Shown here: positions 3,353-60,901 of the stretch, piece by piece | How the letters are laid out: every line of letters begins with the position of its first letter | How positions within the stretch are numbered: the stretch's first letter is position 1 | Made by a program: the position numbers and the translations under genes | Assembly (NCBI GenBank): GCA_021324115.1 | Contig: JAJPJS010000018.1 | Location: 62,001-126,000, forward strand | Direction: 5' to 3' | Source: Nitrososphaerota archaeon | GTDB taxonomy: Archaea > Thermoproteota > Nitrososphaeria > Conexivisphaerales > DTJL01 | DNA length: 64,000 bases | Notes under the pieces: generated by a model | Database searches by the model: none | What the model saw: the letters and a program-made list of their open reading frames with translations, nothing else | What the model was told of the DNA's origin: nothing

Positions 3353-3449
3353 TGGTGCGGCGAGCGGGATTTGGACCCGCGTTACCAGCGTGGCAGGCTG
3401 ATGTCCTAGACCAGGTTGTCTGGGTTGACGCCCTCTAGACGATCGCCGC
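3353..3449 (-). tRNA. tRNA-Gly (GCC) with a 19-nt D-loop intron
   Basis: The minus strand folds as a tRNA: acceptor GCGGCGA pairs with TCGCCGC, discriminator A, and an encoded CCA at 3353-3355. The anticodon loop is CTGCCAC (anticodon GCC). The T arm is GCGGG-TCCAAAT-CCCGC. The D loop carries 19 extra bases at 3416-3434. Around them the RNA forms a bulge-helix-bulge: GTCT pairs with AGAC, the 5' bulge is AG^A and the 3' bulge is AA^C. Cutting there leaves a normal D loop starting AGCCTGG. The intron lies in the D loop, not at the canonical position 37/38. Confidence 0.93.
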
Positions 3450-34182: not shown

Positions 34183-34272
34183 GGGCCGGTAGTTTAGGCT
34201 GGTAAAATGCTCGCTTCGCATGGGTTCGCCAGAAACAGCGAGAGTCCGCGGGTTCAAGTCCCGCCCGGTCCA
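34183..34272 (+). tRNA. tRNA-Ala (CGC) with a 16-nt anticodon-loop intron
   Basis: Acceptor GGGCCGG pairs with CCGGTCC, giving the G3-U70 wobble that identifies tRNA-Ala. The discriminator is A at 34272 and no CCA is encoded. The anticodon stem is CTCGC/GCGAG and the T arm GCGGG-TTCAAGT-CCCGC. The anticodon loop holds CGC, and 16 extra bases at about 34221-34236 follow position 37. The intron has its own short stem TGG/CCA. Confidence 0.93.
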
Positions 34273-60570: not shown

Positions 60571-60693
60571 TGGCGCCCTGGGCGAGAATCCCAGCAGCGA
60601 GAGCTGCATTTGGACTCGCGTCGCCCGCGTGACAGGCGGACATACTAGACCGGATTGCACGGGCCTTTTTACGACCCCCTATACTACCAGGGC
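60571..60693 (-). tRNA. tRNA-Asp (GTC) with introns in both the D loop and T loop
   Basis: Acceptor GCCCTGG pairs with CCAGGGC, discriminator G, and CCA is encoded (60571-60573). Anticodon stem TCCGC/GCGGG with loop CTGTCAC. Intron 1 (24 nt, 60655-60678) is in the D loop: GTAT pairs with GTGC, bulges AG^G and AA^T. Intron 2 (21 nt, 60588-60608) is in the T loop: TCCA pairs with TGGG, bulges AA^T and AT^T, flanked by GCAGC/GCTGC inside and GCGAG/CTCGC outside. Splicing restores D loop AGTCCGGTCTA and T loop TCCAAAT. The anticodon loop itself is uninterrupted. Confidence 0.94.
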
Positions 60694-60901
60694 GCGATTT
60701 CGAACTGAAGAAAAAAGCGTTTTAAACCTTTTGGGGAAGAGCGGGTTCACCGGTCAAAATCATTTCTGACTGGTGGATGGAGTTTTGATGAGGATCGAAT
60801 ACTTTCTCTTTCGATTCATCGTGCAACCTGATGCCGGCAAGTGCTCGAACTGTGAAGCAAAACGTTCAACTTTATTACCGAGCGTCGGGCTGGTCCACCA
60901 A

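Follow-up and report, generated by a model that had tools for sequence, protein, structure and literature searches.

A stretch of 64,000 nucleotides from a Nitrososphaerota archaeon (the window) carries what is, with a probability of roughly 0.88, a working tRNA-Asp(GTC) gene, the only one detected in its genome, in which two introns ancestral to the family form bulge-helix-bulge (BHB)-type motifs that would be cut by an (alpha-beta)2 splicing endonuclease. The gene lies on the minus strand at 60571-60693 and is interrupted at 15/16 (24 nt) and at 59/60 (21 nt), with no intron at 37/38 in the anticodon loop and with G73-CCA at the 3′ end; an earlier note, made from the sequence alone, had read two non-canonical introns here, one of them in the T loop, and its sequence and coordinates proved right. 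Read on the minus strand from 60693 to 60571, with the introns in brackets, the letters are GCCCTGGTAGTATAG [GGGGTCGTAAAAAGGCCCGTGCAA] TCCGGTCTAGTATGTCCGCCTGTCACGCGGGCGACGCGAGTCCAAA [TGCAGCTCTCGCTGCTGGGAT] TCTCGCCCAGGGCG CCA, and removal of the bracketed introns leaves a 75-nt tRNA-Asp(GTC) with G73, followed by CCA. In particular, exon 1 (60679-60693, tRNA positions 1-15) holds the 5′ strands of the acceptor and the D-stem, intron 1 (60655-60678) falls in the D loop, exon 2 (60609-60654, positions 16-59) holds the anticodon, intron 2 (60588-60608) falls in the T loop, and exon 3 (60574-60587) runs from position 60 to the discriminator G73, all on the minus strand. The encoded CCA (60571-60573, minus strand) is not conserved, the full triplet being absent in two of the three relatives that share the gene structure (G002 and G003). 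A TATA-box-like promoter element, GTTTAAAAC, is found on the same strand at 60719-60727, 26 bases upstream of the tRNA 5′ end, and the element TTTAAAAC appears at about the same distance in all three relatives (G001, G002 and G003) as well as in the source genome. A split or permuted tRNA was considered for this locus and is not needed, as the exons are all contiguous and in order. The locus is a genuine and apparently functional example of a known archaeal intron class, and its interest lies in the family-wide density of such introns and in the unusual C55 bases.

The tRNA-Asp gene was missed by ARAGORN and also by Rfam at its gathering score, and an annotation relying on these alone would overlook the tRNA-Asp of this genome altogether. 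A purpose-written solver, which scores the cloverleaf together with the BHB geometry and was not supplied with the cut sites, chose exactly the 15/16 and 59/60 cuts with anticodon GTC, reaching a score of 36.6 against a best score of 18.1 among 400 random stretches of the window. After splicing, the canonical cloverleaf was restored with the GTC anticodon and a solver score of 32.2. Moreover, in 100,000 shufflings of the intron letters with the exons fixed, a motif that matched the real one in quality was obtained twice for intron 1 and nine times for intron 2, and never for both introns together.

The earlier note had described both introns as complete BHB sites, which holds in part. A central helix of 4 bp between exon and intron is present for both introns throughout the four family genomes, every central pair being standard, and intron 2 is a complete BHB of the strict hBHBh′ type, with outer and inner helices closing two 3-nt bulges: the outer helix is the T stem itself (GCGAG/CUCGC, 5 bp), the central helix is UCCA/UGGG, the bulges are AAU and AUU, and the inner helix is GCAGC/GCUGC (5 bp). 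Intron 1, which has no outer helix (0 bp), is not of the closed two-bulge type; it is a relaxed HBh′ motif, with the central helix GUAU/GUGC, formed with the D-stem 5′ strand (positions 10-13), the inner helix GGGUC/GGCCC (5 bp), the 5′ bulge AGG and the 3′ site AA^U. This relaxed HBh′ type of intron has been described in the literature (PMC6379350). In the best solutions, the outer helix is absent from all the 15/16 introns of the source genome, namely those of tRNA-Asp, tRNA-Glu(TTC), tRNA-Gly(GCC) and tRNA-Arg(CCT), and because none of them shows it, these introns make up a consistent class; inspection of the four by eye for kinship revealed no likeness other than the complement that the D-stem imposes. 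On the other hand, the geometry of the T-loop motif is that of the canonical 37/38 site: in both, a 5-bp stem carries a 7-nt loop, which pairs with the intron through its bases 1-4 and is cut between its bases 6 and 7. An alternative pairing of intron 2 given by the minimum-energy fold (GAGUCC/GGAUUC) was set aside; the BHB central pairing is found, with a paired change, in 4 of the 4 genomes.

A DNA search of 61 genomes gave full-length matches, with identities of 79-81%, in the other three family genomes (G001-G003), so that both introns occur at identical sites in all four family genomes, which represent three genera. Among these, the exons are near-invariant, and the introns vary in their letters and in total length (38-46 nt) with the sites and the central pairs kept. 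In intron 2, a paired change involves position 55, where U55-A in the relatives becomes C55-G in the source genome, and paired changes also occur in the inner helices, with A-U, G-C and G-U pairs among the family genomes. A more distant relative from the same class (G039) has an intronless tRNA-Asp that aligns without gaps, which fixes both insertion points. Within the same order, the tRNA-Asp genes of the sister families are intronless in four genomes (G006, G008, G010 and G012) and have only an anticodon intron in four others (G004, G007, G009 and G011), its position at 37/38 being confirmed for G004. The simplest reading of this distribution is that both introns were probably gained on the stem of the family, since losses elsewhere are possible and cost more steps.

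Three other explanations were weighed against this reading. The first holds that the locus is a decaying pseudogene, a disused copy of tRNA-Asp whose intact counterpart lies in the roughly 5% of the genome missing from the assembly. The assembly is 95% complete, which leaves room for such a gene, and U55 is near-universal in the tRNA T loop, position 55 of the mature tRNA-Asp being C instead, which would be unusual. Nevertheless, C55 is present in other, otherwise normal tRNAs of the source genome and of G001, the exons are near-invariant over three genera, the BHB pairs are preserved by paired changes and the promoter element is preserved. When a covariance model of the spliced tRNA-Asp was searched against the 95% complete draft genome, this gene was the best match (E = 1.8e−12) and the next one was a tRNA-Gly, with no second tRNA-Asp; the two-intron gene was also the best match to the model in each of the other three family genomes, one of which is 99% complete. 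This tRNA-Asp itself was absent from the results of a search with a general tRNA model (E-values up to 10), which hence gives no evidence either way on the number of copies. Within the 95% complete genome, neither a loss of structure nor another intact gene reading the same codon was found, and the pseudogene envisaged by the earlier note is therefore not favoured: the sole detected tRNA-Asp and the conserved TATA box argue against it, and we consider it highly improbable.

Recent intron gain had been another suggestion of the note; as a gain confined to this species and tolerated by a permissive endonuclease, it agrees with the lack of these two introns in the sister families, of which four genomes are intronless and four have the anticodon intron only. 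However, the introns occupy the same sites in the four family genomes and three genera, so the gain predates the family; as all four share both sites, the introns are old in the family and not recent, and a gain in this species is the least credible of the explanations. The third alternative accepts the same splicing and proposes that the introns have been kept for shielding the T arm and the D arm from insertion or integrase recognition. These arms are common targets of integrating elements, the introns fall within tRNA arms throughout the gene set, and the idea is present in the archaeal tRNA-intron literature. Furthermore, mobile elements at a tRNA locus have been discussed for Caldiarchaeum (PMC3293823). 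Neutral persistence nevertheless fits the data equally well, and a shielding role is regarded as very unlikely. The preferred reading remains that of a working gene with two introns ancestral to the family.

The source genome has two PF01974 genes encoding separate subunits, the C26 protein and the C9 protein. The C26 protein has the triad Tyr119, His127 and Lys158 and aligns over its length with the alpha subunit of the Aeropyrum pernix (alpha-beta)2 endonuclease (PDB 3p1z, chain B, E = 3e−47; see also 3ajv), while the catalytic histidine is absent from the C9 protein. Lys38 of the C26 protein, invariant in six aligned sequences, corresponds to Lys44 in the Crenarchaea-specific loop of the A. 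pernix protein, a loop lysine needed for broad specificity (PMC6379350). In contrast, the beta subunit matches M. jannaschii EndA better than the A. pernix beta subunit. The subunit-type check proposed by the earlier note accordingly returned one catalytic subunit and one without the histidine, and its idea of an endonuclease with relaxed specificity gains support from the two subunits, the Tyr-His-Lys triad and the A. pernix-type loop lysine; taken together, these features suggest a two-subunit (alpha-beta)2 enzyme of broad specificity, the pairing of the subunits being assumed from homology. An RtcB ligase gene lies immediately upstream of the beta gene (C9), on the same strand, in all four family genomes, and the two genes are divergent neighbours in G004 and G007 (loci L010, L012 and L076-L078 for both arrangements).

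On this basis, a course of expression can be proposed, whose steps after transcription follow established archaeal tRNA splicing. Transcription would start from the TATA element, and the precursor would fold into the two BHB-type motifs, with the D-loop intron paired to the D-stem 5′ strand, such that the D arm could form only after its removal. With bases of the D-stem and the T loop engaged by the introns, both the D arm and the contact between the D loop and the T loop would be blocked before splicing. The (alpha-beta)2 enzyme would then cut both motifs, the relaxed one in the D loop requiring broad specificity, and RtcB would most likely join the exons, after which normal maturation and charging could proceed.

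The organism comes from hot springs, is related to ammonia-oxidising archaea and belongs to the Nitrososphaeria, and its genome is not of the euryarchaeal type that had been supposed from the sequence; the relatives of its catalytic endonuclease subunit are in records named Nitrososphaeria and Thaumarchaeota. The Conexivisphaerales are treated as one order of the Nitrososphaeria (PMC10833072), and the source organism probably belongs there. A census of its tRNA genes, in which our solver was applied to candidates from model matches and genome stretches and about six of the expected tRNAs were missing, gave about 40 genes, 15 of them intronless and 25 with about 38 introns, of which about 26 are not at 37/38; five genes were corrected by hand from homology or reading (Asn, Ile/Met-CAT, Leu-CAA, Lys-TTT and Val-GAC). 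The sites include 8/9, 13/14, 15/16, 22/23, 24/25, 30/31, the variable loop, 53/54 and 59/60. For comparison, about 44 tRNA genes of the order-mate G004 contain 11 introns in total, of which 4 are non-canonical; its tRNA-His, too, is interrupted at 59/60. Introns per tRNA gene average 0.21 across the archaea as a whole and 0.84 among the Thermoproteales (PMC8450103), and the density in the source genome, about one per gene, is like that of the latter.

Members of the Thermoproteales such as Pyrobaculum likewise have several short non-canonical BHB introns per tRNA and a two-subunit endonuclease; P. islandicum tRNA-Pro(UGG), for example, is interrupted at its canonical site as well as at 25/26 and 56/57. 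Among the positions named in one passage on such introns, 59/60 is listed and 15/16 is not (PMC4090602), and the lineage is another one. Closer by descent, the Thaumarchaeota analysed with tRNAscan-SE 2.0 belong to the same broad lineage and have 107 non-canonical introns over all the thaumarchaeal genomes of that set (PMC8450103), compared with about 26 in the source genome alone. Similarly, Caldiarchaeum subterraneum has introns in 13 of 45 tRNA genes, three of which have several, in the D, V and T arms (PMC3293823), versus 25 intron-bearing genes out of about 40 here. A burst of tRNA intron gain of the family's own, independent of the Thermoproteales, is the somewhat favoured account of these numbers. 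The enzyme alone does not explain it, because the order-mate has the same two-subunit endonuclease type with the same loop lysine. If true, the burst would offer a second, naturally replicated case in which to study why tRNA introns proliferate in the presence of a broad-specificity endonuclease, and Thermoproteales-like interruption of tRNA genes is in any case found also in a deep Nitrososphaeria branch, with low-intron sister families available for comparison. No paper on tRNA introns in Conexivisphaera was found in a literature whose coverage was partial.

Regarding position 55, C is encoded in 5 of 40 tRNAs of the source genome (Asp, Gly-GCC, Gly-CCC, Val-CAC and Thr-TGT), recurring for Gly and Val in G001 and in one tRNA-Gly of G003, and in none of the 24 tRNAs checked in the order-mate G004; tRNA-Phe has C54. 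The loci concerned are tRNA-Asp (60609-60654), tRNA-Gly(GCC) (3353-3449, minus strand), L026, L029, L031, L254, L261, L273 and L274. The presence of C55 may reflect loss of psi55 or C-to-U editing. The same tRNA-Gly(GCC) gene has a 19-nt intron at 15/16 (3416-3434) and likewise escaped both ARAGORN and Rfam when the latter was run at its gathering score. A further gene in the window (34183-34272, plus strand) was called tRNA-Arg(tcg) by ARAGORN, and removal of a 16-nt canonical intron turns it into a tRNA-Ala(CGC) with a homologue in G001. Elsewhere in the genome, a tRNA-Lys(TTT) is interrupted three times, at 30/31, in the variable loop and in the T loop at 59/60 (L205, C19 133900-134330), and a tRNA-Asn(GTT) has introns at 8/9 and 30/31 and, judged by eye, a probable third one of 12 nt at 37/38 (L039, C27 22920-23190). 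Box C/D guides are known from archaeal tRNA-Trp introns, and two tRNA-Trp genes (L207 and L266) have a D-loop intron together with a 61-63-nt intron at 37/38 holding GATGA-like and CTGA-like boxes, which by analogy is perhaps a box C/D guide.
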